Below, piece by piece: positions 1 to 53,099 of a stretch of 64,000 nucleotides of DNA. Position numbers and translations under genes: made by a program. The notes beneath the pieces are model-generated. The model saw only the letters and a program-made list of their open reading frames with translations, searched no databases and had not been told where the DNA came from. The DNA is from Branchiostoma floridae (Eukaryota; Chordata; Leptocardii; Amphioxiformes; Branchiostomatidae): positions 6,233,521-6,297,520 of the forward strand of contig NC_049994.1 in NCBI RefSeq assembly GCF_000003815.2, given 5' to 3'. Position 1 is the first letter of the stretch, and the number at the start of each line of letters is the position of its first letter.

Positions 1-2448
1 ACCAATTTAATTTCTTGGTTCACGGATTCGCTCGCTCCAATTTTTTGGAAAAAAAAATAACTAGAGTTCGGCGACCTCATACCTCCATGAAAATTTAGAG
101 CTTTTGTAAATTTCATGCAATTGACTAACACATTAACATAATTTATGCGTGGTGTTGTTCATCATTGACTAACGTACACATGTCACAAGTATAAAATTCC
201 AATCATTAGACATAAAGAGGCTTTGCAATTTTTACATAAATTATGCAAATTAGTTCCTCATTACCATATTTGGTATCTGCTTATATTCCATCTATCATAT
301 TTAATAAGTGTTACATTTATTGAAGTCCAGTTATTGCTAATAATGGTATTATACAATTTCCTCAATAATTATGCAAATAAGTCCTCATTTGCATAACATG
401 TATATCATTATGAACACCTTTGCCTAAGCTATCTGCACCCCTAAAATGATGCCAATCCGTCAATCCTTTCTGCAGTCATCCTCTTTGGAATGTCTTGACA
501 AAAACGCCCCTGCAGTTCCGAAATTACATGTTAGGGGGCTGAAATCTGCCCCACTTTGTCATGACACTACAAGCTATCTACCACCCAAATGTCAAGACTA
601 TATCATGTCCGGGACAAGAGATACATTGAAAAAACTGCTATGATAGAATATTTTCATTAATTATGCAAATTTACTCCTATTTTGCATAATAAGTATTTTA
701 TCTTGTACGACATTGTCTAAGGTACCTACATACCAAAAATCATGAAAATCCATTGTTCCCTTCTTGAGTTATCCTCTTCAGAAGTTTTTGACAAAAATGC
801 CCCTGCTATCCCAAACCTAGTCGGTAGGGGGCCAAAACTTATGTCACTTATTCCTGAGCACAAGAGCTATCTAACACTCAAAAATTGTGACCATAGCGTG
901 TTCAGAACACGAGATAGCAAAACCGGAAGTTGCGCTGCAGTACCAAGGATAGCCGCTAGGGGGCCCAAGATCTAATCACTTCCAGCTTTCATCACACCCT
1001 ACCAACACACCAAGTATGAAACCAATCCATTCAGCCGTTCTTGAGTTATCTTGTTGACAGACACACACACACACACACACAAACGCAGGGTAAACTAGAG
1101 TTCGGCGACCTCATACCTCCATGAAAATTTAGAGCTTTCATAAATTTCATGCAATTGACTAACACATTAAGATAATTTATGCATGGTGTTGTTCATCATT
1201 GACTAACGTACACATGTCACAATTATAAAATTCCCATTTTTGATCATAAAGCGGTTTTGCAATTTTTACATAAATTATGCAAATAAGTTCCTCATTACCA
1301 TATTTGGTACCTGCTTATATTCTACCTATCATAATCAACATGTGTTACATTTATTGAAGTCCAGTTATTGAAAACAATGGAATTATACAATTTACTCATT
1401 AATTATGCAAAGTAAGCTCTCATTTGCAGAACATGTATATCATTATGAACATCTTTGCCTAAGGTACCCGCATGCCTAATATGATGCCAATCCGTCAATC
1501 CTTTCTGCAGTTATCCTCATTGGAATGTCTTGACAAAAAGGCCCCTGCAGTTCCCAAATTAAATGTTAGGGGGCTGAAACTTGGCCCACTTTGTCATGAC
1601 ACTGAAAGCTATCTACGACCCAAATGTCAAGACCATATCACGTCAGGGACAAGAGATACATAGAAAAAATGGCTATGATAGAATATTCTCATTAATTATG
1701 CAAATGTAATATAATTTTGCATAATTAGTATTTCATTTTGTACAACATTGTCTGAGGTACCTACATACCAAAAATCGTGACAATCCGCTGTTCCCTTCTT
1801 GAGTTATCGTCTTCAGAAGTTTTTGACAAAAATGCCCCTGCTATCCCAAAACTAGACGCTAGGGGGCCCAAACTTATGTCACTTATTTCTGAGCGCAAGA
1901 GCTATCTAACACCCAAAAATTGGGGCCATAGCTTGTTCAGAACACGAGATAGCAAAACCGGAAGTTGCGCTGCAGTACCAAGGGAAGCCGCTAGGGGGTT
2001 CCAAAATCTAATCACTTCCAGCTTTCATCACACCCTACCAACACACCAAGTATGAAACCAATCCATTCAGCCGTTCTTGAGTTATCTTGTTGACAGACAG
2101 ACAGACACACACACAAACGCAGGGTAAAATATAACCTCCATGACATTTCATGGAGGTAAAAATAAAGATTACTACTCAGCAAATTTTCACCATTAATGAA
2201 GCCATTCACCAGCTTTCTGGTGTAGCAAATTGGCCTTTATATTATAAGCTCCTTAAAGTGTGGGTACAGGTGCTGTTACTGTACAATAGTGTAGTGTTTT
2301 TGTACTTTTTCAAGCTGAAAACTTTTTTTCTTTATGTTTTGGATAGCCGTTACCTTTACCCCAACCATTTTACAATTTTTATTTTTATTTCGCCCTCTCG
2401 CTCCTTATTTTTTGTGAAAAAATCCGTGAACCAAGAAATTAAATTGGT
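1..2448. mobile_element. Non-autonomous DNA transposon with 28-bp terminal inverted repeats
   Basis: The first 28 bases are the exact reverse complement of 2421-2448. Just inside the ends, short C/G-rich stretches (cgctcgctcc on the left, its approximate complement on the right) extend the pairing imperfectly. Most of the interior is two tandem copies of a 1.03-kb unit. Open frames inside are short and differ between the two units, so no transposase is evident and the element must be mobilised in trans if it moves. The superfamily cannot be assigned because the left target site lies outside the window. Confidence 0.75.
61..2127. repeat. Two tandem units of 1034 bp inside the transposon
   Basis: The string ctagagttcggcgacctcat starts at 61 and again at 1095, and the sequence stays closely similar until both units end in an ACACAC run followed by acgcagggtaaa. 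Each unit also contains two diverged half-copies (about 446-640 and 742-975 in unit 1), each with the core gacaaaaa-gcccctg and a taggggg motif. A hairpin reading cctccatga-catt-tcatggagg follows unit 2 at about 2131-2155. Relatives of the unit end lie at 18180-18432 and, more weakly, at 9100-9340. Confidence 0.8.
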
Positions 2449-3268: not shown

Positions 3269-6200
3269 CTACTCCTCTCTGTCCTTTCTCTTGTGCTTGA
3301 GTTCCTCACCACGGATGACCATTTTCACCTCCTCAGCAGTGAGGCTCTGGTGTTCTAACAGTGCCAGGGCGAGTCTCTCGTGCTCCACTCGGTACATTCT
3401 CAGCATTCGCGACGCTCTGTCATACGATTCCTGAAGACAAGGATGTTATAATGAATGGATAAAATTATATGGTAATGGCCGAGTGTTCGCCTTGCATTCG
3501 GTAGGTCAGGAGTTTGATCCCCAGCCAAGTCATGCCAAAGATTTTGAAAGTGGTACATTCGGCTTTCTCTGCTTAGCACTAATGAGGAAAAGTATGGGTC
3601 CCAGAGTTAGCCCAAATGGACTAGCCCCCTGCTGTAGTGGCTTGCACAAATGTGTGGCCCAAGGGCTACAGAAATGGAGACAGGCATCACCCCTACATAT
3701 TTCGGTGTTACAGAATGTATTGGCAACTTTTACTTTTAGTTTAACTTTAATTAAATATATCGTACAATACAACATTCATTTTTGAGCATTAATAGAATGG
3801 GAAACTAGTCAGAAATGTGGAATACCAAACACATCTAGTACAATGCTAAGCTTTCTCCCAAGGTATACATGAAACAAATTATCAACGACCAGTCTTCAGC
3901 TATTGATTCTGACGAAGGATGAGCTTCCATGATAATTTGAAACACTGAAAACACCTTAGTTTGTTTCCTAGGTTCAAAACCATTATGGAAGCCAAAAATC
4001 ATAACAAACAAATTTTGCATCAGAATTTATCCTGCTTGCAGTGACCATGGATCTCTAAAGGAAAAAGGTTACAGAAAGTTGAGGCTGTCCTTGGTGCTGA
4101 ATGAGTTTCAAGAACACAGCTGAAGACTTCTTGTTACCATAAGACTACTTGGCCTGTTGCTAATTATAATGTAAGCCAAAGTCATGTATTACATGCTTCT
4201 ATTCTAGTAGGATCTTGAGTCAAAGAAGATGTCACATTAGACAAATAAACAAACAAATCCCGCCCACCTGTAGAAGCTTCCTGACCTCCTGCTCGACTGT
4301 CTGTCTTGTCTCGGGCGTGGCCCCCATGGTGCCGAATGGTCCACCAATCAGAACCTGTAGACCAAGCTGATAAACAACAAACAAAAGACAGGTCATGAAC
4401 TGTCCAGGACCAACAAACAAACTTCTAAAATCTCCAAGAATATCTTTTTCGTGGCAAAATCATAACAACAAGTCCATCGGTTACTGCCTTTTTAATGGTT
4501 TTGTTCAGATGTAGCCAGGGTAGGACAATTCCACTAGTCCGATATTGTCCCGGGCAAAGTTGGGCAAGTATGATTTTATCATGAGGGAGATTTTGATACT
4601 ATTTACTTTAATCCAGCATTTGTCAACATAGAAAAATTGAGCCAATAATAAAATAAATCCATTGCTGGAATAGGAAACACAAAACCTCAAGCTCTGCCAA
4701 TTTTTCATGACCAGCAAAACATTTGGATAATTTTCATGTTAAAGAAAATGACAATTGTGGGAAATTGAAGCAAAGAGAACAGTATGATACAGCTAGCCTA
4801 TAATGCTTGGATATTTATAAGTGGCTAGTGATGTTACAGTTGTTGGCTATAATGCTCACCTTTTTGCTCATCCCATACTCTGTCACCATGCAGCTGGCAA
4901 CGTTATTGGCCATACGGAGGTCCATACTGGCACCTGAGGAAAACATTACACAAATCTTTTAAAAAACTAACTTTGGTGAACATGACACTCTAATGGATGT
5001 TTTTAAACTTGTTTCAAAACTCTATTGAACGAAACCATATAAACACAAACTTCAAATCACAGTAATGTCAAGAATACATTTTTGTGGTTATGTAGAACTA
5101 GAAGGTAAAGGAAAGTTTTTTGCAATATTTTGAAATAGTGGTTTAATCGATTCTGTAACACATTTCTCATAATATTATATAATGGTTTGCGGTGTCATAA
5201 ATTTTCAGCAGGGAGGTACCCGCAAAAATAAAATCACTGAGAAACATTTAGGACTTACCGTATACAGGGCTCAAAATACCACCTGCATAATGCAAGTTAG
5301 TGCAGGTAAAATTGGAGCAGTGCAGGTATTTCCAATGTACTTGTAGGTAATTTACACATTTGTATATTCATGTTTCATCATTGAGGATTTTCACTTGCTT
5401 CATTGATTGTTACCACCCATGAAGTATGAAAGAAATAGTTTCTGTATGATCAATTACTTCCAAAATTCTGAGTGGTGCAGGTAAAATTTGTCTGGTGCAG
5501 GTAATTTTCAATGTTACCTGCACCTGTGCAGGTATGCAGAAGAAAGTATTTCAAGCCCTCAGTTATATATTACCTTTTGTGATGTTATCAGGGCCGAAGA
5601 CCATCTCCTCTGCCACCCTGCCTGCCATGGCGATGTCCATCTGTGCCAGGAGCTGGGACTTGGTCTGCAGCATCAGCCACTTACTGCGGGGGAACTGGAA
5701 CGACACCTGCAGGACAAAACAAACAAGCTGGAATTTTTTTGTCTTGTACATTGTCTGCAACAGTTGTATTTTCTCAAATAATGTACACACTTTCTAAACA
5801 TTTTACAATCCAAAATGGGCTGCAAGTTGTTGCCAAAGTCGGTCTTAAAATAACAAGAAATTGGACAACCTGGATGCCCTTACACTGGGATTAGATTCTC
5901 TGGCAAGCAATGAACTTCTGATTGACCAGGGATGCCAGCAGGACAGTAATTTTGCCCCAAAGGATACCTTAGAATGCACCATGATTCTTGAAAACTCTAG
6001 CCTGGTATCCAGCAGTATTATAGCTCTCGAGTGTCTTCTGTCCTCTCGAGAGGACTCTGGAGCTATAATACGGCTGGATACCAGGCACCATGGAAGGTGG
6101 ATGCCCTTGGATCACCCCCACCCCCACACACACACACACAGTACATACAGTCACATCACTCACCAAGAAATTTGGACCCCTATAATAAAGTCCTAGCTAA

Positions 6201-8497
6201 AACTAGCAAAAGCCTGTCATTGAGCAATGGTACAAAGAAGTTGTCAGACCATACAAAATCTGTAAGCTGGGATTACAGAGAAAGTTAAACCCCTCTGTAC
6301 TCACATGACCCAGCGCCGGTCCCCAGGACTTGACCGAGGCCTTCTTGATGGGCGGGGAATCTGTGGTGTAGTAGGCGACCAGGGCGTGGCCTGCCTCGTG
6401 ATAGGCTGTGATCCTCTTGTTCCTGTCCCACAATGCCTTCATCTGAGGATCTGGCATGACACAAATATTATCTTCTTTTAACCCTTAACAGCCCAGCTAA
6501 TTTGAACACATGAGTATTACGGTGTAGTTAACTTGGAAGCCAGACTGGATGTGTGTATCACCGGTAGTTGATCACAATTTTCCATAAAGTATTATCAACT
6601 TTAACTCTTTGCTAATCATGTGTAAGAAATCCTTGTAAATGGTACTCAGAAAACTACACAAAAATATATTCCAAGTCCTAATCTCCCAAATACTCAGTGT
6701 AAAATACAGCTTTTAAAGGGGAAGTGTACAGTATGTGAGATTTGATTTTGCGATAAGTGAAAATTGGATTGTTCAGGGTGGTTGTAAGCTGGTAAGTTGG
6801 GACTTAGGGGTGGATAAGCAGAAGACAGAAAAAATGCTTGCAGTGTTTTTAAGTTTGCAATGAAGCAAAAACAGTAAAGTTTAATGTAAATTCACCATGA
6901 ACATTTTCAGTAGGTGTCATGCTTTGAGTACACAAGTAAGTGTCATGTTTTCTGTCCCCAAGCTAGAGGACATAGATGAATATTATAGTAACCCAAATCT
7001 ACTGGAAGATAGAGTCTGGAAGGTTATTATCTACCCACCCTCCCGTATCTTTTTTTCCCATCTGGCACTCATCATCCTGCATGCCCCTCCCACCACAGCA
7101 ATGCCGGCAGCAAGGATTGCCAGTCGCCTAAACCTGCGATGCCACCTTCCCTGCCGAACTGAAGGAAAAAGAAAAAGAAAAAATAGGTCATATTATGTAC
7201 CGAATTATCTTATACTATATGTTAGAAAATAAGTAGCCATACTCATCTATGTCTGTCTATGATAGCATGCATGATATAATAAAAGAATAGTGCTCAGCAA
7301 TTATTTCTTGCAAAAGATATATAACATGACCAAATCTGAAAGACTTATCATACGGTTATAGGTTTAACCACTGATCTTCGGATGCAAAGAAACAGCCATC
7401 ATCATCAGAAAAAGATAACTTTGCCAATGCAATGTTTTGCCCTACTATCTAGATATCTACTGACCAAGTTGGACCTGAGACTACAACTTTGTGTGTTGTT
7501 ACAATTAGAGTATTAGTATTACATCATAAGTTTACTACCAACTCACCCACTATATCTATTTTGTGCTTCTCCCCACCGACTGTGTAGACAATGGAATATT
7601 CTCCAGGCTTAGGGATAGACTTCTGTCCTGCTTCCTGTATAAAACATGGTATATCATTAGAACACTGTAGGATGATTTATAGTTGAAGAAAAAATGGTTG
7701 GTGGGACTGCAGTCTTGTAACATTGCTGCAACTTACGAAGTCACTGGGTGTTTCTTGGCTTTAAGAAAAAATACTTTTTTGAGGCAGTAGGGTGTCTTAA
7801 GGTTATGGTCAGAGCTCCTCCTCCTCCTTTCACTGCCATTTTGATACCTTCCCAACCAAAGCCAGGTATCCATTATAATACACCTGGATGGAGTAAAGGT
7901 ATCAAGTCAAGTGCCCTTCCCAAGGGTTAACCATCTATCAAGGACTGTCATGAGTCAACCCGCAAACTCTCAAACTTGTATCTGCTAGCCTAGTCACTTG
8001 ACCATTGGATGCCACACAAACACAATGGCTTTAAAAATGACAATAAATATAAATCTTACAACAATATTGTCTTACCTGAAGACCTACACCTTTAGGAGTC
8101 TCCACCACTATCTTCTCTGTAGCTTGTTTAGCCTCGTCTGCCAAGCCTCGCGTGATCCTGTGGCGTACCATCTGGGAGACTGCAGGAGAGCCTGCTAGCC
8201 TCTAAACACACAAGACACGAATTATATAATATGTAACGTTCAGTAGTAACACAGAGATTGTTAGAGTTGATTTTACTGGTTTGACTTTGACTAGTACTGT
8301 TTGATCTGATTTCTTCAGTATTTTCATTTGGTTACTTAAAATACCACGTCATCTAAGTGACTGTAAACGTCTCAATATTCTAAAGCCAGTGAAGGCAATG
8401 TGCACAGATTTATTACAGTAACTGTAGTTTGTTGGAGGTCATGCGAAGAAAGGAAAATTCTATGGATATTCACCTGAAAGCTCCGGACAGCAAGCAT
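3269..8497 (-). CDS. M41 (FtsH/YME1L-like) zinc metallopeptidase lacking the AAA+ domain
   Basis: Nine minus-strand exons, all with GT-AG ends and matching phases: 8497-8474, 8201-8076, 7634-7547, 7158-7039, 6450-6305, 5706-5574, 4933-4860, 4354-4268, 3430-3269. Together they encode 319 residues. The start MLAVRSFQRLAG plus an Arg-rich stretch looks like a mitochondrial presequence. The third exon (EAGQKSIPKPGEYSIVYTV) precedes a single membrane segment, LAILAAGIAVVGGA, at about residue 92-105. The peptidase domain then follows at once: HEAGH zinc site (residues ~138-142), AQMDIAMAGRVAEE, and GASMDLRMANN carrying the third zinc-ligand Asp. It ends with the helical C-terminus seen in YME1L. 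No Walker A/B or SRH sequence exists between the membrane segment and HEAGH, where the roughly 250-residue AAA module normally sits. By family it should be a mitochondrial inner-membrane protease; ATP-independent action is inference. Confidence 0.87.
3471..3790 (+). repeat. tRNA-derived SINE-like insertion in the last intron of the M41 gene
   Basis: The segment opens with an A-box-like tggccgagtg at about 3477 and a B-box-like gagtttgatcc at about 3510, the spacing of a tRNA-type pol III promoter. An unrelated body and an AT-rich tail running into aattaaata follow. It sits between exons 8 and 9 of the minus-strand M41 gene, in the opposite orientation. The exact ends are not resolved. Confidence 0.5.
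5999..6090. repeat. Palindromic CTAGCCTGG-type element in an M41 intron
   Basis: tagcctggtatccagcagta is mirrored by the complement ending ggctggataccaggc. Stems of about 30 bp (with a few mismatches) enclose a short loop rich in ctcgag/cctctcgag. It lies between exons 5 and 6. The same terminal motif bounds the element at 45377-45463, so both look like one small palindromic MITE family. Confidence 0.6.
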
Positions 8498-23068: not shown

Positions 23069-23114
23069 AATTTCAGTTTGTTTTGTTATTTTGCTCTCGT
23101 GGTTTTAGTCAAGC

Positions 23115-24938
23115 ATGGAGAAAAAACATAGGTCCAGGAGGAAGTGTTCCGTGTGTCGCCTTCCAGTGAAGGGTCACCCGGGCCCTTGTGGCCCTGGCAA
23201 CTGTGTATACGAACAAGCGCCGGGCTCGTCTGATGAAGACTTTTTCTACCGGTTGAGGAATGAGAGGAGGCTACAAGACAGAGTCAGTCAACTCAGGAGA
23301 GAAAGTAAATTGGAGGACATTGCAAGGAGTGCATGGTCAACAGCTACTTCAGATGATGGGGAAGACAAAGTTGAATACAGACCCACATCCGTTCCTGCCA
23401 AGACATTTCCCCGGTCGCCGGGATCTTCTCGTGGGAACCAGGCTCGGCAAGCCAGGGCACGCAGTGAGCCAGCGAAGATTTCCCGCCGTAAGCCAGCGAG
23501 CACAGGGGCACAGGACGGCGAGTCGACCGAATCCGAGGACTTACAGCGCTATACGGTGAAAGATCTCAGATCGTCCAAGGGGTTGGTCAAGGAGGTGGAC
23601 CAAGTTCTGGATGATCTGTTGGACCCAACATCGCGTCCGCGGTACAAGAAGAGCGCTAGGTACAAACGCTCTGCTGGGGTTAGAGCTGAAACCCCCTCAG
23701 ATACCTCATCGTCAAGCAGCAGTGAGGACCCGGGCCCGCGCGGAGCACGCTCGGCTCGCCCGCGTAGTTCAAGACCAGACAAACACCACAAGGCACGGAG
23801 CCTGAGTCGATCAAGGAAGACAAGAGCCCATTCACCTCACAGACACAAGGTGCAGAGCTATAGCCGCCAGCCTTATAGTTCGGACACTTCGTCTTCCCGT
23901 TCGCGTGGCAACAAGAGAAGTAACAGGTACAAACGCTCCACAAGTATTCGAGCGAATGCCCCATCAAGGCCCTCTGATTTCTCGTCGACTAGCAGCCAAG
24001 AGGATCTCCCAAGCAGAGCCCGTTCGGCCCGGCCACGTTTTTCTAGACCAGACAAGTACCACAAGAAACGAAGCCCGAGTCGACCAAGGAAGTCTAGAGC
24101 TCGTACGCCTCACAGACGCAAGTCACGGACGCACGCCCGCCAGCTTAGTTCGGACACTTCGTCTTCCCGGTCACGTTCAAGGGACAGGCGAAAGAAATCA
24201 GGTAAGACCGGGCGCAACCGTACTATAAATGACTGTAGCTCGGCCCGTGTCAAAGTAGAATGGCCACAGGAGCGGGTTCATTTTCCTGGTCATGGAAAGC
24301 GTGGGGGAGTGACTTACGACGAGTTAACTATGCCTATGTTTGTACATGGTTACGTTAAAAATGTAATCGAGTCACATAGAGTTTCACATGTTGTTGAAGA
24401 CAAGTTTATTCACCTGGCAGACTTGATGTTTGATGCAGTGTATCAAGATTGGGTCACAGTAAGAGAGTTACATGCATCAATGCTATACGGTTTAGAACGG
24501 GGCACATTGAGTTGGTCAGATGCCGATTTGTTTGCTACCATCAGGGACCGACATTACCGCACACAGGGTAGCGTGTCACGAGGCGGGAACAGCGGGAACG
24601 TTCAAGGGGCGTGGTCAGTGACTGGTGGACGTGCTACCGGCGGGTATCAAAGGCCGCGCAATTGTGGCGGTTTTCAGAATGGATCGTGTTCCTTGCGTTC
24701 GGGTCACTACAGTATGAGATGGAACAGTCCCGTACTACATGTTTGCAGTGCTTGCCTACAAGTCCGCAACATTCAGGAGCATCATGCGAGCAAAGACTGC
24801 CCGTACAGAGACCCTGCCTTTCGCCTCGCGCAAACCATGCAAGCGGAGGCTGGGAGAGGCACCGCCCCTCCCCCAGCTCAGGCCGGCGGCGCCAGTGGAC
24901 AAAGACAAGGCGATCGAGTTGCATCGGGCCGTGTGTGA
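23115..24938 (+). CDS. DIRS-type Gag-like protein with RS-rich repeats
   Basis: 607 residues from ATG 23115. The N-terminus has a Cys/His cluster ([20 protein letters not shown]). Residues about 175-365 are Arg/Ser-rich and contain two imperfect repeats of about 85 residues, each running YKRS..., [25 protein letters not shown]. The folded region [20 protein letters not shown] to [17 protein letters not shown] follows. Near the C-terminus [19 protein letters not shown] forms a C-x2-C...H-x4-C knuckle. The protein should package element RNA; RS repeats could also bind splicing factors. It overlaps the RT ORF by 200 bp in a different frame. A consensus splice donor lies inside it at 24201/24202. 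Confidence 0.8.
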
Positions 24939-26583
24939 GAGCGCGTGTTACAACTTTGAAGGCGCACGTATACCGGTGAGGTCATCTTTGAATATATCTA
25001 CATGGAAGAAGTTACTGCGAGACTATAACGACAGACAGATTGTTGATTTCTTAGAATTTGGATGGCCGATTAATGTTCAAACAGAATTGTACCAGCGTCC
25101 CTTGGAAACATCAGTTCGTAATCATAATTCTGCTAATCTTTATGCTGAACACGTTGATGCGTTTATTGCAAAGGAAATGAGACTGGGAGCTTTAGCCGGC
25201 CCTTTCTCGTCAAATCCTTTTCCGTTTCCGGTTGCGCCGATACCGATGCAGACCGTAGAGAAGAGAGACAGCACTGAGAGACGGGTGGTTGTCGATTGTA
25301 GTTTTCCTGCGGGATACTCTATTAATGATGCCGTGCCCAAAGATTCTTACTTAGGACAGGAAATAAAACTCACATACCCGTCAGTGGATACATTTACGCA
25401 GATGATAGTCGACAAAGGACCCGGATGTTTATTGTACAAGACTGATCTGAAACGCGCATATAGACAGATACCAGTCGACCCGAAAGATTATGGTTATCTC
25501 TGTTATTGTTGGAGGGATCAATTATATTTTGATATGCGAGCTCCGTTCGGACTGAGAAGCAGTGCTTTGATTTGTCAGAGAACGACGTCGGCAATCACAT
25601 TTATACAACAGGAGAAAGGGTATTGTATTTGCAACTATCTGGACGATTTCGGGGGGGCAGAGCGTCCACCTGTAGCTACAAAGGCATTTGACAGTTTACA
25701 AGATACGATATACAGCCTAGGATTGCAGGAGTCAAAAGAAAAGGCAGTCGCACCAACGACCTGCATGATTTTCTTGGGAATAGAATTTGATACCGTTGCT
25801 ATGGTTAAACGAGTACCACAGTTTCGCCTCGACGAAGTACGACTCTTGATTGAGGACTGGATTAATAAGAGGAAGGCGTCTAAACGCGAGCTTCAGTCGC
25901 TGATTGGCAAGCTTGTTTTCGTGTCTGCATGTGTGCCTTCGGGACGTCTTTTTATTTCTCGCATGTTAGAATCACTACGCAGCCTTAGCAGAAACCATCA
26001 CAGACTTCGCCTGTCTCGTGACTTCAAACTGGACTTGTACTGGTGGCGGAGATTTATGAGTTCATTCAATGGAGTGTCACTTTTGACACCTAACGTGTAT
26101 TGTGTCCCAGATGAGATAGTTTCAACGGATGCGTGCCTGACTGGATGTGGAGGATTCTGTAATGGTGATTTCTTCCATGCCAAGTTCCCGACTTCAGTGG
26201 TCCAACGCTATGGTTCTAAGATACATGTCTTGGAGATGCTAACAGTTGTTGTCGCTGCCAAGAAATGGGGCCCGAACTGGAGAGGGTCTAGAATCTTGAT
26301 TAACTGTGACAATATGGCGTGTGTGTATGTATTGAACTCGGGACGTTCTAGAGATAAGGATTTGCTCCGTTGCGCGAGGGAGCTCTGGATGATCGCGGCT
26401 ATGAATGACTTCGTCTTGAAGGCTGTGCATATTCAAGGACGAGAAAACCGAGTGGCGGACCACTTGTCAAGATGGCATTGCTCACCCTGGCATCCTCACC
26501 AGTTCCATGTTTTGACACAAGAAGTCGACACTTGTGAGATAACGGTATTGCAGGAAGACTTCTCCCTGGAATGCCCTCTCTGA
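24739..26583 (+). CDS. DIRS-type reverse transcriptase-RNase H
   Basis: 614 residues from ATG 24739, in the +1 frame relative to gag and overlapping it by 200 bp; the functional start may be further in. RT motifs in order: [36 protein letters not shown] (first catalytic Asp), [18 protein letters not shown], and YLDDF (catalytic Asp pair). The RNase H domain follows: [43 protein letters not shown] and [11 protein letters not shown], supplying the acidic residues. The enzyme copies element RNA into DNA. The frame ends with consecutive stops, TGA TAA. Confidence 0.9.
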
Positions 26584-26601
26584 TAACATCACTGACATTG
26601 G

Positions 26602-27603
26602 TTGTTATGTTTTGTTACAGTTAAGACAGATCTACTCAACTTGCGAGAACAGGCACGTCGGACAAAATTTGCTGCCTTTGCTGAAGGAACCTGGTCGAAC
26701 TTACGGACACACTTGAGGACATACCTGCTGTTCTGCACGTTCTATAATGTAACTCCGTTCCCAGCAACAGTGGACACTCTCGAGACATTTGCTCAGTTCC
26801 TGAGTCGTTCTTTCCGAGCACCAGCAGCCATTAGGAATTACATCAGTGGCATTAAGACTCTGCACACCCTGTTCGGTTGGGACATTACTGCTTTCGAGTC
26901 GATGGACCTGGGATTACTACAACGAGGACTAAGCAAACAGATGCAGCATACACCTAGACAGAAGTTACCGTTCACCCCAGCAGTATTGTTGCAGATCTAT
27001 GAACAATTGGACATTTCTGTTCCGTTGCATGCGACAATATGGACTATTATTTTATTAAGTTTCTTTACATTTCAACGCATGTCAAATTTTCTAGGGAAAG
27101 GTACTTTCAATCCAGATAGACAATTTATTATGGATGATTTCGTTGTTCATAAAGAGGTATTACTTGTACGAATACGGTGGTCAAAGACATTACAGGCGGC
27201 AGAACGTTTGTTGTACGTGCCAGTAATCCGGATGCCTGACTCGCCATTGTGCCCGGTCATGGCTTTTCGTAACATGGTTCAACTCAATAAGAACACGAAT
27301 ACTAAGGCTGCATTTGTCGTTCCACATAACTCTACCTTTGTACCTCTGACTCAGCATGTATTTGACAGAGTGTTTAAGAGAGTTCTAGTTAAAGCTGGTT
27401 TAGATCCTAGCAGTTATTCCTTGCATAGTGGCAGACGGGGAGGAGCCTCGTTTGCTTTTCGTGCCGGTGTACCAGTAGATCTTATTCGTATTCAAGGCGA
27501 CTGGAAGTCTGATGCCTATTTACTGTACCTTAAGGTTCCGTTAGAGACACGTTTAAAGCTTTGCACTAGAATGGTGAGTTATATCCGTTCAGTAGATTGC
27601 TAG
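26602..27603 (+). CDS. Tyrosine recombinase of the DIRS-like element
   Basis: About 333 residues in the same frame as the RT ORF but separated from it by two stop codons. There is no ATG at the front of the frame; the first codon of the open stretch is TTG. An acceptor, ttttgttacag, ends at 26620 with a CTGAC branch-like motif upstream, so the real 5' end is probably spliced. The catalytic set is visible: Arg in FFTFQRMSN, H-x2-R in SLHSGRRGG, Trp in IQGDWKSDA and the Tyr nucleophile within AYLLYL. The N-terminal core-binding domain (FAAFAEGTWSNLRTHLRTYL) is present. It should insert the circular cDNA by recombination without target duplication. Confidence 0.88.
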   Translation: MLCFVTVKTDLLNLREQARRTKFAAFAEGTWSNLRTHLRTYLLFCTFYNVTPFPATVDTLETFAQFLSRSFRAPAAIRNYISGIKTLHTLFGWDITAFESMDLGLLQRGLSKQMQHTPRQKLPFTPAVLLQIYEQLDISVPLHATIWTIILLSFFTFQRMSNFLGKGTFNPDRQFIMDDFVVHKEVLLVRIRWSKTLQAAERLLYVPVIRMPDSPLCPVMAFRNMVQLNKNTNTKAAFVVPHNSTFVPLTQHVFDRVFKRVLVKAGLDPSSYSLHSGRRGGASFAFRAGVPVDLIRIQGDWKSDAYLLYLKVPLETRLKLCTRMVSYIRSVDC

Positions 27604-38470: not shown

Positions 38471-39792
38471 ATGGACACAACGAAACCTGAGCACTATACC
38501 CAGAACAGCTCCTTACAGTACAGTATAGGAATTCGGGCGCTGCAGAAGTATATGGAATGGGAAGGAGACGACACAGTTTTGGACGCAGGATGTGGCACAG
38601 GGGAGATCTGCATGTTCATCTCCCAACAGCCAGGGGTAGCTTCTGTGGTGGGCTTTGATGTGTCACCTGACTTCGTAAGGTAATTCCTGGCTTTTGAAAT
38701 GGGCACTTACCACAATGTATCTTGAATGATTTGATTGTTAGAGATTAGTCACCAACAACACCTGTCACGTGCACTGTCTCAAATGATCAGCAAATTATTA
38801 AGTTTCAAAAGTCATGTTTTAAGTTCCACCCAGTCAGTCGGATAATTGTACACTCAGGCTACTGTCAGACATACCTATGTCACCATAATGTGGAATCAAT
38901 CAATTGGAAATAAAATCAGTTGACCCCAAAGTTGACCTAGAACTTTATCAATTACTACATAGGAACCAATAGTTACCAAGGCATTATTCCCATCATGCAT
39001 CATTGGATTGTAAATAGTCCATGTATTTGCTCATCGGTGATTAATTGTTACAAATTTAGTAGATTTTGTGTACATAAAGATGTGGTCTTTTAGAAATAAC
39101 ACTCGCCTCTGGACAAAAATATGGCTTGAAGTTGTACAAAGGGGTCACATTTTCATATGCAAAATTAGTAAGGCAAGTTTGTGAATATTTGTTGTTGTTT
39201 TTTCAGCTATGCCAGTCAGCAGAACTCCTCCACAAACATTCTCTACCACGTAGCTGACGTCTCTGACTTGTCCACCATTAAGCCAGAGTGGCAAGGTGCT
39301 TTCAGTAAGGTAGTTTCTTTCTCAGTGCTACACTGGGTGAGGGATAAGGTTACAGCACTGAAAGCACTTCATTCGTGCCTGAAGCCTGGTGGAGAAATCG
39401 TAATGGTCTTCGCCACTGATGAAAGCAAGATTATCCCAAATTACTTGAAGATGGCAGCGCATCCCAGGTGGGCAATCTACTTTAAAGATTTCTCGCCCAA
39501 CTTGTTTCCATGGCCTTCCAGTGATCTCGTGAACCACAGTAGCCACCTTCTGGAGGAGTGCGGTTTTGAGGTCCTCTCTTGTCATACCAAAGAGCACCAG
39601 CACCTGTTCGAGTCTGAAGAAAAGCTGAGGGACACTCTTTTTGCTATGTACCCCGACCTTCGCTATATTCCCCGAAACAAGCACGAAGAATTCTTGCATG
39701 ATTTTGAAAACATGGCAAGAGAGGCCCAAGTGATATCTGAGGATTGCAAAATAACCGAATTTCTTTCATTCGTTCAAGCTCGAAAGTTGTGA
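38471..39792 (+). CDS. SAM-dependent methyltransferase, juvenile-hormone-acid-methyltransferase-like
   Basis: Two exons, 38471-38679 and 39207-39792, with a 527-bp GT-AG intron joined in phase 2 give 264 residues. Class I methyltransferase motifs: VLDAGCGTGEICMFI (SAM-binding motif I, residues ~38-52), VGFDVSPDFV (post I), FSVLHWV (motif II region) and LKPGGEIVMVF (motif III). The start MDTTKPEHYTQNSSLQYSIG, with a conserved-looking Gln/Tyr region before motif I, and the C-terminal aromatic-rich half resemble insect JHAMT and the many deuterostome proteins named after it. The substrate is unknown; deuterostomes are not known to make juvenile hormone, so a small carboxylate is plausible. An acceptor-like cttaacatag ends four bases before the ATG, suggesting an upstream non-coding exon. 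Confidence 0.85.
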
Positions 39793-46174: not shown

Positions 46175-46202
46175 GTTTATGACTTAACAAACATAGCTTC
46201 AT

Positions 46203-48893
46203 ATATGGAGAACATTCCTGACATAAACGCCTTAACCGAAACATTCATGACAACCCTTTCTACAACGATCGCGCGGTTTGTACCCAGCAAACAGGTCACA
46301 ATCCGACCAAGAGACCAACCTTGGATGACGTGTGAAATTAGACAAATGCTAAGGAAGAAGAAACGAATGTACCGTAAATACAAGAAAACTAATAGGCCAG
46401 AGATATACAACACGTTCAAGCATATCCGTAATAGTTGTACAAAGTTAATCAGAAAGGCGAAGCACAACCACAGACTCGGTCTTTGTCTCGACCTGGCAAA
46501 TCCATCCTCGAACCCAAAAAAGTGGTGGTCCGTTTCTAAAGAAATATTCATGTGTAAGATAGATCGAACGTTACCACCCTTAGTCGAAGATGAATCTACT
46601 ATTACGGACGACAAGACCAAGGCCAATGTCTTTAATCGCTACTTCGCTTCTCAATCAAATCTAGACACAACAGGCGCCTCTCTTCCCTTGTTTACAAGTA
46701 GAACTGACACGGCCATCGACTGCATTATCTGCTCCCCCTCTGAAGTTTATGAAATTTTGTGTAACCTTGATGTTAACAAGGCCACAGGTCCTGATGGTCT
46801 TGGTAACAGGCTTTTAAAAAATGTCGCCCCATCATTGGCTAATCCACTTTCAAAATTATTCAATATCTCCATACAGCACGGGTGCTTCCCGGACATTTGG
46901 AAATGCTCGAACGTAGTGCCTGTACATAAGAAAGGCGACAAGCAGACAAAGGAAAACTACAGACCCATATCCCTCCTATGTTGTGTATCCAAAGTTTTGG
47001 AACGAGTAGTTCACAGCTATCTTTCCTCTTACTTCCGCCAAAACAAGCTCCTTACTGATCGTAACGCCGGGTTCGCCCTTGGAGATTCTACCGTAAACTC
47101 CTTAACATACCTTGTTCACAAAATTCATCAAGCACTTGACCAAGGACTTGAAACCCGCGCAGTCTTCCTTGATATTTCCAAAGCCTTTGATAAGGTTTGG
47201 CACATCGGCTTACTCTTTAAACTACGACAACTTGGAGTCACTGGGTCTCTGTTGGCATGGATAGAGTCGTATTTAAGTAACCGAAGGCAAAGAGTCGTCA
47301 TCAATGGAGTGTGCTCTGAATGGCTACCTATCAATGCAGGTGTTCCTCAGGGATCCCTCCTTGGCCCCTTACTTTTTCTTGTATTTATAAATGACATTGT
47401 TGATGACTTATTAACAGACTCCCGCCTTTTTGCGGATGATACTGTACTACTAGAGATAATTACTGACCCTGTTGCCTCAGCGGACAGGTTAAACCGTGAT
47501 CTCACATCAGTTTCGGAATGGGCTGCTCAGTGGCTTGTTACATTCAATCCCCAAAAAACAGTATTGATGACGTTCTTCCTGAAGAAAAACAAAGTCCGAC
47601 ATCCCCCCTTATACTTTAAAGGTGTTCAGCTCACTGAAGTCGACTCCCACAAACACCTTGGCCTACATCTCACTAGAGACCTTTCATGGTCACTTCACGT
47701 GTCAACCCTGGTGACGAAAGCAATGAAACGCATAAATCTACTGAAAAGAATTTCTTGCTTTGTCCCACGGAAAACACTCGAGACTCTGTACAATGCCATG
47801 ATACGTCCCTTGATTGAGTATGCCAACGTCGCCTGGTGCGGTATTCTTAAGAAAGACTCTGACTCACTCGAATCAGTACAGGTGTCCGCGGCCAAGGTCT
47901 GCACGGGCGCACTAAGGGGGACGAATCACAGCCGTATATTAACGGAGGTCGGTTGGGACACACTTGCCACCAGACGGGAAAAGCATGTACTTATTCACTT
48001 CTATAAAATGGTCAGCGGCTCCGCACCAAATTATCTCCATGAACTGGTACCTCCACTTATCCGTGATTCCACCCCTTATGGCCTTCGAGATGACCAGAAC
48101 TACCTCCCTATTGCCCTAAGAACCGAAAAGTACAAAAGATCCTTTTTACCCGCCGCAGTTTTCTCCTGGAATCAACTTCCTTTGTCCGCCAAAACATCAC
48201 TATCTATTAGTATTTTTAAAAGAGAACTGGAGTCTTTCTTTGACAGCCCGCCCAGACACACCCACTACTCCCATGGCCACGGACGCCCTGCAGTTCACTT
48301 GACCAGACTCAGACTCGACTTCAGCCAGCTTAACTCACACCTATTCAAACACCATTGTATATCTAGCCCTACTTGTAAATGTGGGAACTCAGACGAGACA
48401 ACTGAGCACTACTTGTTGCACTGCGAACTATACAATAGCGAAAGGACTCATATGTTGCACTCTATATCCCTTTTAAACCTAGAAGAATTACTCTCGCCTG
48501 ACCCCCTTAACTCATCTGACAATACTTTATGCACCCTTCTCACTATGGGCAGCCCTTTCCTTCCACACTCGACAAATTGTAACATCTTTGACTATGTTCT
48601 TAATTTTATCAAAATGACCGGAAGATTTAGTTAATTTGATTTGAAATTGATTGGTAATGCCAGCCTTGTATGCGCCTTAGCCCGTTTTTGTTGTTAGTAT
48701 TTATGTTATTCTTATGTTGCAAAATGATGTTTATGTTCATGTCATTTTAAGTTATACGTTTCGTTATAATCTCAATTTTGTTACTTTTGTTTGTCATTGT
48801 ATGTAATATAGAGCAGAAGACCCCCATAAGCTCATTGTGAGCTTCTTGTCCAATGCTCTAAAAACGAATGCGAATAAAATAAAATATATATGC
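46203..48893 (+). mobile_element. 5'-truncated LINE inserted in the MADF intron
   Basis: Sequence left of 46203 (ttaacaaacatagcttcata) and right of 48893 (tgctaattctgaatgccctg) is contiguous in copy 1 at 35570-35606. The insert is therefore a clean addition of about 2.69 kb. It ends gaataaaataaaatatata and has ATATAT at both borders, compatible with a short target duplication. Most of it is one RT ORF; the endonuclease part is missing, so the copy is 5'-truncated. Confidence 0.8.
46205..48634 (+). CDS. LINE ORF2: reverse transcriptase (CR1/Jockey-like), open 809 codons
   Basis: The frame opens at ATG 46205, right at the insertion border, so the true N-terminus with the APE endonuclease is lost. 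Visible: linker DQPWMTCEIRQMLRKKKRMY; RT motifs NKATGPDGLGNRLLKN, VVPVHKKGDKQTKENYRPIS, FLDISKAFDKVWH (first Asp), GVPQGSLLGPLLFLVFINDI and RLFADDTVLL (FADD catalytic pair); then RPLIEYANVAWCG and a C-terminal CKCGNSDETTEHYLLHC zinc-knuckle-like motif. No stop or frameshift interrupts 809 codons, which indicates a young insertion. It can no longer transpose by itself without the endonuclease. Confidence 0.88.
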   Translation: MENIPDINALTETFMTTLSTTIARFVPSKQVTIRPRDQPWMTCEIRQMLRKKKRMYRKYKKTNRPEIYNTFKHIRNSCTKLIRKAKHNHRLGLCLDLANPSSNPKKWWSVSKEIFMCKIDRTLPPLVEDESTITDDKTKANVFNRYFASQSNLDTTGASLPLFTSRTDTAIDCIICSPSEVYEILCNLDVNKATGPDGLGNRLLKNVAPSLANPLSKLFNISIQHGCFPDIWKCSNVVPVHKKGDKQTKENYRPISLLCCVSKVLERVVHSYLSSYFRQNKLLTDRNAGFALGDSTVNSLTYLVHKIHQALDQGLETRAVFLDISKAFDKVWHIGLLFKLRQLGVTGSLLAWIESYLSNRRQRVVINGVCSEWLPINAGVPQGSLLGPLLFLVFINDIVDDLLTDSRLFADDTVLLEIITDPVASADRLNRDLTSVSEWAAQWLVTFNPQKTVLMTFFLKKNKVRHPPLYFKGVQLTEVDSHKHLGLHLTRDLSWSLHVSTLVTKAMKRINLLKRISCFVPRKTLETLYNAMIRPLIEYANVAWCGILKKDSDSLESVQVSAAKVCTGALRGTNHSRILTEVGWDTLATRREKHVLIHFYKMVSGSAPNYLHELVPPLIRDSTPYGLRDDQNYLPIALRTEKYKRSFLPAAVFSWNQLPLSAKTSLSISIFKRELESFFDSPPRHTHYSHGHGRPAVHLTRLRLDFSQLNSHLFKHHCISSPTCKCGNSDETTEHYLLHCELYNSERTHMLHSISLLNLEELLSPDPLNSSDNTLCTLLTMGSPFLPHSTNCNIFDYVLNFIKMTGRFS

Positions 48894-49984: not shown

Positions 49985-50041
49985 ATTTCTAGCGTTTGAC
50001 AAAGTCATTAGCGTGAAGTTCGCTTTCTGCATCAACAGATT
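49985..50041 (+). pseudogene. Short tyrosine-recombinase remnant
   Basis: ctagcgtttgacaaagtcat and cgtgaagttcgctttctgca correspond to 42393-42432 of the degenerate recombinase. It abuts the SGNH ORF directly, marking the breakpoint where the CR1 element is truncated. Confidence 0.5.
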
Positions 50042-51142
50042 GTGTGGAGTTGTGCACAGGTGACAATTATAGAAGTCCTATACCCCTCTAAACGAGTGGA
50101 AAAGGAACTGACCTACAACTTGTCACAAGCTACAACTTTCGTTCGGAGTTCTAACATACCAGATCCCAAAGTTATCTTATTCCACGTCGGAACGAATGAC
50201 ATTCGTGCCACGGCGGACCCGACAGTTGTGTCCGAGAACTTCAGGAAGCTGATACAGGTATCCCATGACAAGTACCCCCAAGCCGCCCTGGTTTTCTCCT
50301 CAATTTTACCGAGATGTGATCGTGACCTGCAGGAAGTTGGTGACGACGTGAATACTTTCCTGAGGGTTGTAGCGGAGGAAACTAGCTATGTTCACGTCAC
50401 GGACAACACTGGCCTGGCGCACATGGGGTCGCCAAAGGCAGACATGTACAACTCAGACGGCTACCACCTGAACAGGTTCGGGGTCAGTGTGTTGGTTTCC
50501 AACATTAAGAGAGTGGTCAATCCTATCCTAGGACTTGGTCAATACGCCAGCAGGGGTGCAAGGTCAACTCAAGGTCAGCTCACGGAGCCTCGAGCTCCCA
50601 GATTCTCTCAGCATCCTGTCCGGGTTCAGGAGAAACCTGCTCGCTCAACCAGGCATGTGTCCTCATCAGGACAAAGCCAAGTTGCGTCCAAAGCAATGCC
50701 GAATGCGCCTGCAGCCAACCAATCTCCTGTGCAAGTGCAGAGCCGCACTTCAATGGATTCAGCTCAGTTAGCGCCTTCAGAAAAACCAGAAGACCAAGGC
50801 TCAACGCGATCTCCTGGTTCTCCAACGCCAAACTCCCATTCGCCGTGTCCGTGGAGCAGACCGCCGCCGAGCCAGCTGCAGACGGGACCGTGGAGCAGAC
50901 CGCCGCCGAGCCAGCTGCAGACGGGACCGTGGAGCAGACCGCCGCCGAGCCAACAGACAGGACCTTGGAACAGACCTCCAACGAGTCTGCAGACGGGACC
51001 CTGGCCGCCCATGTTCAACCATCCACCTGCTCCTTGGGGTCTTCCACCTCCGAACAACGCCATGAGGAACCAGCCTCCCCGAGTGCCCCCACCGCCTTGG
51101 CCCTGGCATCCTGCGCTGATGTGGCCGCCCATGGTGTGGTAG
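50042..51142 (+). CDS. CR1-type LINE ORF1 with SGNH esterase domain, 5'-truncated
   Basis: 366 open codons without an ATG at the front (first codon GTG at the repeat junction). The SGNH hydrolase core is clear: VILFHVGTNDIRATADPTV carries the GTND block (block III), and DMYNSDGYHLNRFGVSVL carries the D-x-x-H of block V. The block I GDS with the nucleophilic Ser should lie upstream and is lost. The C-terminal half is Pro-rich, with three near-identical repeats of GPWSRPPPSQLQT at about 50847-50950. SGNH esterase domains are known from ORF1 of CR1-type LINEs. ORF2 follows 190 bp downstream on the same strand. Confidence 0.8.
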   Translation: MWSCAQVTIIEVLYPSKRVEKELTYNLSQATTFVRSSNIPDPKVILFHVGTNDIRATADPTVVSENFRKLIQVSHDKYPQAALVFSSILPRCDRDLQEVGDDVNTFLRVVAEETSYVHVTDNTGLAHMGSPKADMYNSDGYHLNRFGVSVLVSNIKRVVNPILGLGQYASRGARSTQGQLTEPRAPRFSQHPVRVQEKPARSTRHVSSSGQSQVASKAMPNAPAANQSPVQVQSRTSMDSAQLAPSEKPEDQGSTRSPGSPTPNSHSPCPWSRPPPSQLQTGPWSRPPPSQLQTGPWSRPPPSQQTGPWNRPPTSLQTGPWPPMFNHPPAPWGLPPPNNAMRNQPPRVPPPPWPWHPALMWPPMVW

Positions 51143-51405
51143 GATAAGCGTCTGTCAGTTACCGTAGAACAAGTGAAAAATCTCTGCAACATGATTATTA
51201 GAACTTAACGTAATAGTATGTCTTAGTTTGTTTCCTTCCTTTTAACCTCCTGCTAACCCGATATGTTTTGAGAATACGTTTTGAATCTGTTTCTGTATAC
51301 ACTGTTTGCACATTTTAGTTTAAACCGATATGAATGTTGTTAGATATTGTATTTGAATGCTCGAATAAGGACACTATTTTACTTATAGTACTTCTTTTTT
51401 CCGAT

Positions 51406-52830
51406 ATGAAAACATTCCAAAATGAAATCAAAAGCTTTGGCTTTTGGAATGTTCACGGATTAGGTTCCAAACTAGAGGATTCTGATTTTCTCTCACATGT
51501 CAAAAAGTTCGACTTCTTCTCGCTTTTAGAAACCTGGAGTACAGAAAACACCATAATTAACATTCCCAATTACAGCTATTTTCATCAACATAGACAAAAG
51601 AGTAAGAGAGCGAAACGTTCTTCGGGAGGTATTGTCTTTCTATATAAGAACGAATACAAAGGTTATGTAAAAAAAGCACCATCTCAATCAACAGACGCCC
51701 TTTGGGTACAAATCGACCGCCAACTACTCGGTTTACCCAAAGATCTATTCATATGTTCTCTCTATATTAGCCCCGGAGCATCCACTGCTCACAAACATTC
51801 AGAAAAACATATTATAGACACTTTAGAAGATGAAATCTCTAAATTCAGCTCCGTCGGGTACGTTTTATTAGGTGGTGATTTTAATGCCCGTCTCGGAAAT
51901 CTACCTGATTACACAACCGATTCTCATATTGACGACGATTCCGACAGCTCCCCATACTTCACTGACAGACAACACATGGACAAAGTTTCTCCCAACAAAT
52001 TCGGTAGACTAATCACAGACTTGTGTATTCAAGCAAATCTTAGAATATTAAATGGTAGAGTTGTCGGTGACCTACAGGGAAAATTCACGTGTCACCAACC
52101 AAATGGCAGCAGCACAGTTGATTTAATGATTTGTAGTAAGTCCTTTCTCCAGCAAATTTTATCATTCCGTGTCAATCCTCTAACAGTATTCTCTGATCAT
52201 TGTATGATATCTACATTAATTCGCTCAAAACCACCAATACATACTTTTCAGGAAAAATATAAAAGCTCACACACCAGGCCTCTTCCTAAACATTTTCACT
52301 GGAACGAGAATTCTGCTCAGACATTTCTTCTTTCTCTCAGTCAGCCCGACATTGTAAAACGATTAGTTGCTCTAAAGGACTCTAACAACATAACATCTGC
52401 GGCAGAAATTGAGAATTATGTTTCTGAATTTAGCTCAATTCTGAGAGAGGCGGGTAATAAGTCACTCTGTTTAAAAAGAGCTAGAAAACGTCCACCGAAA
52501 AGACAAAATAAGAAATGGTTCGACAAAACGTGTATTGAAATGAAACGTGAAATGAAAAATTTAGCCTATTTACTAGAAAAAAAACCATCACATCCAGAAG
52601 TGAGGGGCAGTTTCTTCAGGAAGAAAAAAGAATATAGAAAATTATTGAAAAAGAAAAAACGTGATTTTCGTCAACAAATTATGAATCAACTATCCACCCT
52701 TCAGGAAAAGAATCCAAGTGCATTTTGGGACCTTGTCAATAAATTAAAACCCGAGAAGGCTCAAGAAAATAGCCAAATCTCCAGCGAAGACTGGTTAAAC
52801 CACTTTAGTAAAGTTGACAAATCATCCGAC
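51406..52830 (+). CDS. CR1-type LINE ORF2, APE endonuclease and linker, cut by assembly gap
   Basis: The frame is open from 51334; ATG 51406 is the likelier start because GFWNVHGLGSKLEDSDF, the usual APE opening, follows at once. Further endonuclease motifs: FFSLLETWS (catalytic Glu), SGGIVFLYKN, LGGDFNARLGN (D-x-N), STVDLMICS and VFSDHCMIS (S-D-H). A Lys-rich linker (KRARKRPPKRQNKKWFDKTC) precedes the RT. The frame runs into 100 N at 52831. Confidence 0.82.
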
Positions 52831-52930
52831 NNNNNNNNNNNNNNNNNNNNNNNNNNNNNNNNNNNNNNNNNNNNNNNNNNNNNNNNNNNNNNNNNNNNNN
52901 NNNNNNNNNNNNNNNNNNNNNNNNNNNNNN
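52831..52930. other. Assembly gap (100 N)
   Basis: Exactly 100 N, a conventional placeholder of unknown size, in the RT region of the CR1 element. The 170 bp right of it do not continue the LINE frame. Confidence 0.95.
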
Positions 52931-53099
52931 GGCTGTCATGGCGGCTTATTTGTGCAATGAGTCTCCGCCAGTCTCTAACAGACCTCCCATTTAAGCCAGA
53001 AAAAAATGCAGAAAGCGGCCAAAAATTACCGATAATTGGTAGGGCTAGGGGGATGTAGTTTGACTCGTAGAAAACGATGAGGAGGATTGACTCCTAATA

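Follow-up and report, generated by a model that had tools for sequence, protein, structure and literature searches.

A 64,000-nucleotide stretch of the genome of the lancelet Branchiostoma floridae (NC_049994.1, positions 6,233,521 to 6,297,520; hereafter the window) carries, on its minus strand at 8497-3269, a nine-exon gene which, to judge from its sequence, is a paralogue of animal YME1L that evolves fast, keeps the M41 protease domain and is devoid of the AAA+ motor. FtsH-family proteases are described as needing this AAA motor for substrate feeding. An ordinary YME1L gene is present in the same genome, and the present structures of the two genes differ by one frame-neutral block. As far as sequence comparison can tell, the window gene thus encodes an M41 protein derived from YME1L in which the module that defines the i-AAA family, an AAA+ module with Walker motifs, is absent. 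The normal YME1L gene and the recognition that the missing part matches a symmetric phase-1 exon block go beyond the preliminary description of this DNA, which was made from the sequence alone.

The gene differs from YME1L by a block of AAA exons

The 513-Mb assembly contains 15 M41 matches at E ≤0.001, which by our own grouping fall in five places. One of these is the ordinary YME1L gene, located on the same contig (C16, 5029.5-5043.4 kb, plus strand) at 1.2 Mb from the window gene, with exons for the N-terminal domain, the membrane segment, the AAA module and the M41 domain. From the AAA module onward, its matched stretches are 55-88% identical to human YME1L. The human YME1L sequence used here agrees with Glu600 and with seven other numbered residues. 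The membrane exon of the lancelet YME1L (5032745-5032873, 129 nt) has phase 1 at both ends, its AAA module is made of five exons (171, 153, 196, 113 and 156 nt; 789 nt in total) flanked by phase-1 introns, and its first M41 exon (5038377) likewise begins in phase 1. In the window gene, the phase-1 membrane exon 4 joins the phase-1 M41 exon 5 directly. Because a phase-1 intron flanks the block on each side, its removal keeps the reading frame whole.

Exons 5-9 of the window gene each match one M41 exon of this YME1L, with E values of 5e-15, 5e-12, 0.003, 4e-4 and 3e-7, and the sizes of these exons are 146, 133, 74, 99 and 162 nt in the window gene versus 152, 126, 74, 84 and 144 nt in YME1L. 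Across the five M41 exons, intron positions and phases are common to both genes. Taken together, the matches and the common intron positions and phases exclude chance as the source of the likeness in exons 5-9. The shared M41 introns and the missing AAA block therefore point to an intron-bearing YME1L paralogue without that block, and the presence of the same M41 introns in both genes led us to reject an origin as a retrocopy.

Several side observations were made at these loci. In YME1L, a 1-nt frame offset in the 126-nt M41 exon (C16:5039082-5039207) is perhaps a sequencing error, and two consecutive stretches at C16:5031225-5032135 resemble the same part of the N-terminal domain and might be alternative exons. 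A segment of intron 6 of the window gene (window 5261-5579) is 71% identical to 5039809-5040152, in an intron of the YME1L gene, and is likely a dispersed repeat. Two other places, on C6 near 19.12 and 2.17 Mb, give both AAA and M41 matches and in our reading look like m-AAA genes. A partial paraplegin-like copy was found at C9:15552024-15553926, in stretches 80-98% identical to the C6 gene at 2.17 Mb; its M41 exons include a HESGH exon with altered flanks, and no Walker A motif was found in the 29 kb examined, which contains N gaps, one of them at 15553928. This copy is perhaps a decayed duplicate or a misassembly.

Gene model and M41 domain

The nine-exon model, the coordinates and the 588-bp intron 4 of the preliminary description were exact, and the exons join in phase; the protein had been given as 319 residues, whereas the joined exons have a coding length of 972 nt including the stop, that is, 323 residues. 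GT-AG boundaries are present at all eight introns, and the 323 codons and eight introns are free of stops, frameshifts and broken splice sites. Intron sizes range from 272 to 837 bp, and intron 4 is ordinary among them.

Table 1. Features of the motorless YME1L-type gene, in window coordinates
Feature	Position	Strand	Remarks
Exon 1, start codon, MLAVRSFQ	8474..8497	-	ATG and GT donor; start assignment inferred
Exon 2, basic presequence-like N-terminus	8076..8201	-	GT-AG, phase 0 to 0
Exon 3, without recognisable domain	7547..7634	-	GT-AG, phase 0 to 1
Exon 4, membrane-segment exon, 120 nt	7039..7158	-	Phase 1 to 1, as in the YME1L membrane exon
Predicted single membrane segment, residues 92-110	7067..7123	-	Kyte-Doolittle 1.78 over 19 residues
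Intron 4, 588 bp, site of five AAA exons in YME1L	6451..7038	-	
Exon 5, first M41 exon, 146 nt	6305..6450	-	Phase-1 start and phase-0 end, same in YME1L
HEAGH zinc-binding motif, residues 137-141	6386..6400	-	
Lys156, equivalent of human YME1L Lys618	6341..6343	-	By alignment
Exon 6, M41, 133 nt	5574..5706	-	Matches YME1L M41 exon
Exon 7, M41, 74 nt	4860..4933	-	Equal length in YME1L
Asp217, distal zinc-ligand position	4920..4922	-	Column invariant in 6 sequences
Exon 8, M41, 99 nt	4268..4366	-	Loop longer than that of YME1L
Exon 9, M41 end and stop, 162 nt	3269..3430	-	

Support for exons 1-4 is weaker than for the M41 exons, and comes from the open frame, the splice sites, in part the guanine-plus-cytosine (GC) content, and the likeness of exon 4 to its YME1L counterpart. 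The GC content of exons 2 and 4 is above that of the introns (5/654 and 0/663 intron windows are as high), and that of exons 1 and 3 is not clearly so (68/816 and 102/712). Exon 4 resembles the YME1L membrane exon in phase (1 to 1), in size (120 versus 129 nt) and in its hydrophobic segment. The correspondence of the N-terminal exons with those of YME1L is thus one of position and phase, which falls short of showing homology. Mitochondrial import and membrane topology are predicted features of the product: its first 33 residues include six K/R and two D/E, and the hydropathy peak, a modest membrane signal, marks the sole 19-residue segment predicted. Just past the 3' end of the gene, at window 61-2060, two copies of an approximately 1-kb unit were seen by eye in direct order.

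A Pfam scan of the 323-residue protein, reporting matches up to E 1, returned Peptidase_M41 (PF01434) at E 2.1e-46, with residues 128-307 covering positions 5-190 of the 191-position profile. The sole other match was Reprolysin_3 (E 0.19), below its cut-off. The domain is therefore of whole length, and it keeps both the HExxH motif, as HEAGH, and the distal Asp; the third zinc ligand in M41 is an Asp (PMC12994072). The YME1L/FtsH-type M41 domain with HEAGH and a distal zinc-ligand Asp, already proposed in the preliminary description, is borne out by these matches. The best match in the PDB by sequence was yeast YME1 (6az0, E 2e-35).

Absence of the AAA+ motor

No AAA+ module was found in the protein by the Pfam scan. 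The window was also searched by tblastn with five bacterial FtsH proteins, human YME1L and the AAA stretch of the genome's own YME1L; tblastn recovered the M41 exons, and the AAA parts of the queries matched across the window only at E ≥0.2. Intron 4 has stops in all three frames and is continuous, without N. Its best local score against the genome's AAA stretch was 27, a score reached by 173 of 300 shuffles; introns 1 and 3 stand higher against their own shuffles, of which 11/100 and 10/100 reach their AAA scores. Decayed AAA remnants in intron 4 are thus unsupported by the shuffle test, and the claim that this intron holds no AAA coding sequence agrees with matches that are at chance level there and across the window.

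An artefact, in which the AAA exons are real and either dropped out of the assembly or join the transcript from another place, would explain the same structure. It could draw on the frame offset in the YME1L M41 exon, which indicates that the assembly may have errors, and on two kinds of match in intron 4: the exon 5 alignments of three queries (human, Sinorhizobium and Methylocystis) extend about eight residues into the intron, facing the last part of the AAA lid, and one AAA-like match of 14 residues lies on the sense strand (E 7.5). However, neither rises above chance, as seen in the shuffles and in the nine residues before exon 5: with the most favourable of three registers, 34 of 4049 nine-mers from introns score as well. 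We read the AAA-like matches as chance. Moreover, the intron is unbroken and of ordinary size, and in YME1L an intron divides the end of the AAA lid from the first M41 exon. We consider such an artefact very improbable.

Origin of the gene

In its M41 domain, the window protein is 52% identical to the genome's YME1L (98/189) and 48% identical to human YME1L (91/188). A first scan of bacterial and archaeal genomes gave 33 matched stretches, among which no relative was confirmed; a second scan, with an alignment as query, gave at least 578 confirmed relatives, of which the best 80 were used. A Walker A motif lies in the same frame in 78 of these best 80 bacterial relatives, and the other two frames begin at a contig edge.

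Two trees were built. The first, of 24 rows with 18 hand-picked loci of the 80, grouped the window M41 domain with human YME1L (support 99/96), on a window branch of 0.94. The second, of 15 rows, included lancelet YME1L and eight of the 80 loci, and grouped the window protein with human and lancelet YME1L (100/99). These placements agree with the YME1L-type assignment of the domain and, with the scans, led us to reject a bacterial origin; an origin from AFG3L2 or paraplegin was rejected on the 34% identity to AFG3L2 and on the first tree. Yeast YME1 did not join animal YME1L firmly, the two forming one group in 22% of the bootstrap trees of the second tree, where the window protein, yeast YME1 and AFG3L2 were flagged as long branches. 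End branches in this tree were 1.24 for the window protein, 0.19 for lancelet YME1L and 0.23 for human YME1L. Human and lancelet YME1L formed a group excluding the window protein at 86/52, and the alternative of the window protein with lancelet YME1L was not rejected (approximately unbiased test, p 0.239). A duplication before the lancelet-vertebrate split and one after it would both fit, and the age of the paralogue is uncertain.

Selective constraint on the gene

The window gene and the genome's YME1L were compared over 189 codons, which gave a nonsynonymous distance (dN) of 0.414 and a synonymous distance (dS) of 2.017 with NG86, and 0.395 and 1.634 with LWL85. The pairwise dN/dS of 0.21-0.24, to which the YME1L branch contributes, is far from the value near 1 that the preliminary description had named as speaking against a functional gene, with dS near saturation, since the two genes differ at 31 of the 49 four-fold sites. 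Among positions with the same residue in lancelet and human YME1L, the window protein keeps 28/34 of the columns that are at least 95% conserved in the 80 bacterial FtsH proteins versus 56/97 of the others (Fisher p 0.012); with columns at 90% conservation the figures are 32/41 versus 52/90 (p 0.031). There are 38 such columns at the 95% level, and the window protein keeps 30 of them, as does human AFG3L2, with 34 kept in human YME1L and 32 in yeast YME1. When neutral decay was simulated, 0.2 substitutions per site led to 5.3 expected stops and no open frame in 400 runs, and 0.3 substitutions per site left one of 400 runs open. Together, dN/dS, column retention and the simulation argue against a long-dead pseudogene.

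A gene that is non-functional or recently disabled would be harder to tell apart: a fast-evolving full-length paralogue may lately have lost its motor and be drifting, its frame unbroken so far. The long branch would suit such drift, as would the changes at six columns that lancelet and human YME1L share and whose conservation in bacterial FtsH is 95% or more. Against it stand the intact frame and splice sites and the pairwise dN/dS near 0.2; and since about half of the simulated sequences carry a stop at 0.02 substitutions per site, any drift must be recent. We judge this explanation unlikely. Of the preliminary proposal of an intact gene rather than a pseudogene, the AAA-less YME1L-type gene with an open frame and low pairwise dN/dS therefore stands, and selection on the motorless form is not proven, as these results give no date for the motor's loss.

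Proposed function

Taking these data into consideration, we propose that the product may be a membrane-tethered, ATP-independent peptidase of the intermembrane space, acting on substrates that need no unfolding, a reading in which our confidence is evenly balanced. The YME1L gene would have been duplicated together with its introns, probably long ago, and the 789-nt block of five AAA exons would have been deleted from the copy, an event that we infer from the present structures; the ordinary YME1L, kept elsewhere, would free the copy. The product would be imported into mitochondria and anchored by one membrane helix, and would expose a zinc-loaded M41 domain to the intermembrane space; there it could cleave flexible tails, short peptides or membrane-proximal loops without unfolding them and, presumably like OMA1 or ATP23, without ATP. 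Oligomers made of M41 domains alone are possible, and for bacterial FtsH a review describes hexamer formation by the protease domain on its own (PMC9020784).

Some observations weigh against this proposal. The long branch of the window gene in both trees could reflect relaxed constraint and makes its placement less sure, and some of the constraint seen by dN/dS may date from a time when the gene still had its motor. No homologue supports exons 1-3, and by tblastn the N-terminal exons are dissimilar in sequence to human YME1L. The changes at the conserved columns are I159V, P161S, R162W, G196A, S254T and E298Q. In a study of engineered human YME1L hexamers, beta-casein was undegraded without ATP, and a YME1L core without the membrane span migrated as a monomer (PMC5095350); by itself, an M41 domain may therefore fail to degrade proteins. 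Three of the changes, I159V, P161S and R162W, are near the active-site strand, in the strand that follows the zinc helix. Nucleotide binding in FtsH is reported to alter an edge strand above the active site, and there are signs of the same in YME1L (PMC12994072). The strand with the three changes may be this nucleotide-sensitive edge strand and, if so, the changes would fit a release from motor control.

HEAGH, Asp217 and Lys156 are all kept in the window protein, and the last of these bears on a different role, in which the product would be a partner or a brake of full-length YME1L, binding its subunits through the M41 domain or the membrane segment and altering or poisoning the hexamer. Lys156 is the counterpart of human Lys618, the salt-bridge partner of Asp575 in the AAA module (PMC12994072), and is kept although the window gene has no such module; mixed hexamers occur among FtsH relatives, where residues of the protease domain affect which partner is chosen (PMC9020784). 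However, the Lys156 column is at least 95% conserved in the 80 bacterial FtsH proteins, so a structural role is possible for the residue. The AAA ring of YME1L adjoins the membrane and the protease ring lies beyond it (PMC12994072), and a motorless subunit, with about 17 residues from the end of the membrane segment (110) to the start of the M41 domain (128), would sit at the wrong height unless its linker were stretched. A brake, moreover, would need no intact zinc site. We regard a partner or brake role, the main alternative to the peptidase proposed above, as rather unlikely.

Comparison with known proteases

The window gene shares with YME1L / Yme1 an M41 domain of 52% identity, the M41 introns and their phases and one predicted membrane segment, and differs in having no AAA+ module, another N-terminus and a branch about six times longer (1.24 versus 0.19). 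An M41 domain without a motor was also met among the sequence matches as the bacterial FtsH protease-domain structure 2di4 (a 238-residue chain), which we take to be a laboratory construct, from Aquifex, of a motor-bearing enzyme, whereas the window gene is natural. Arabidopsis VIRESCENT3, a putative chloroplast metalloprotease, has an M41-like domain without AAA; unlike the product proposed here, it is a plant plastid protein. OMA1, an ATP-independent mitochondrial metalloprotease, belongs to family M48, and ATP23 belongs to family M76. ATP23 is likewise ATP-independent (PMC12994072). The proposed ATP-free zinc protease at the inner membrane or in the intermembrane space would resemble these two enzymes, which are of other peptidase families; the only Pfam match of the window protein above its cut-off is M41. 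Plant FtsHi proteins are, like the window protein, FtsH relatives in which one of two activities is lost. In FtsHi1, 2, 4 and 5 it is the HExxH motif that is missing (PMC9020784), whereas the window gene keeps HEAGH and the AAA module is absent.

Other features of the window

Elsewhere in the window, adjacent long open frames at 23109-27603 include one with a reverse transcriptase match (PF00078, E 2.9e-7), the others being without a Pfam match, in a layout that recalls a DIRS-type element. A reverse transcriptase frame at 46175-48634 (E 2.8e-31) and a GDSL-lipase match at 50012-53058 (E 2.2e-9) probably belong to LINE-type elements. An open frame at 39172-39792 has a methyltransferase match (PF08241, E 1.7e-6) and is probably an exon of a host gene.

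Significance

No animal M41 protein without AAA was described among the literature matches listed, in the titles and abstract openings of open-licence papers. That a processive ATP-driven protease has turned, in a chordate, into a motorless, ATP-independent peptidase of the intermembrane space through the loss of one frame-neutral block, and has been kept under selection beside the original, is a tentative reading, on which our confidence stops somewhat short of even. If true, it would mean that an animal has a naturally motorless enzyme of the FtsH family, and a natural motorless M41 protein beside its motor-bearing parent gene would directly test what the M41 domain does alone. The structure suggests that, given suitable exon phases, an entire motor domain can be lost in a single step, and the gene may illustrate the passage from a motor-driven to a motorless protease.

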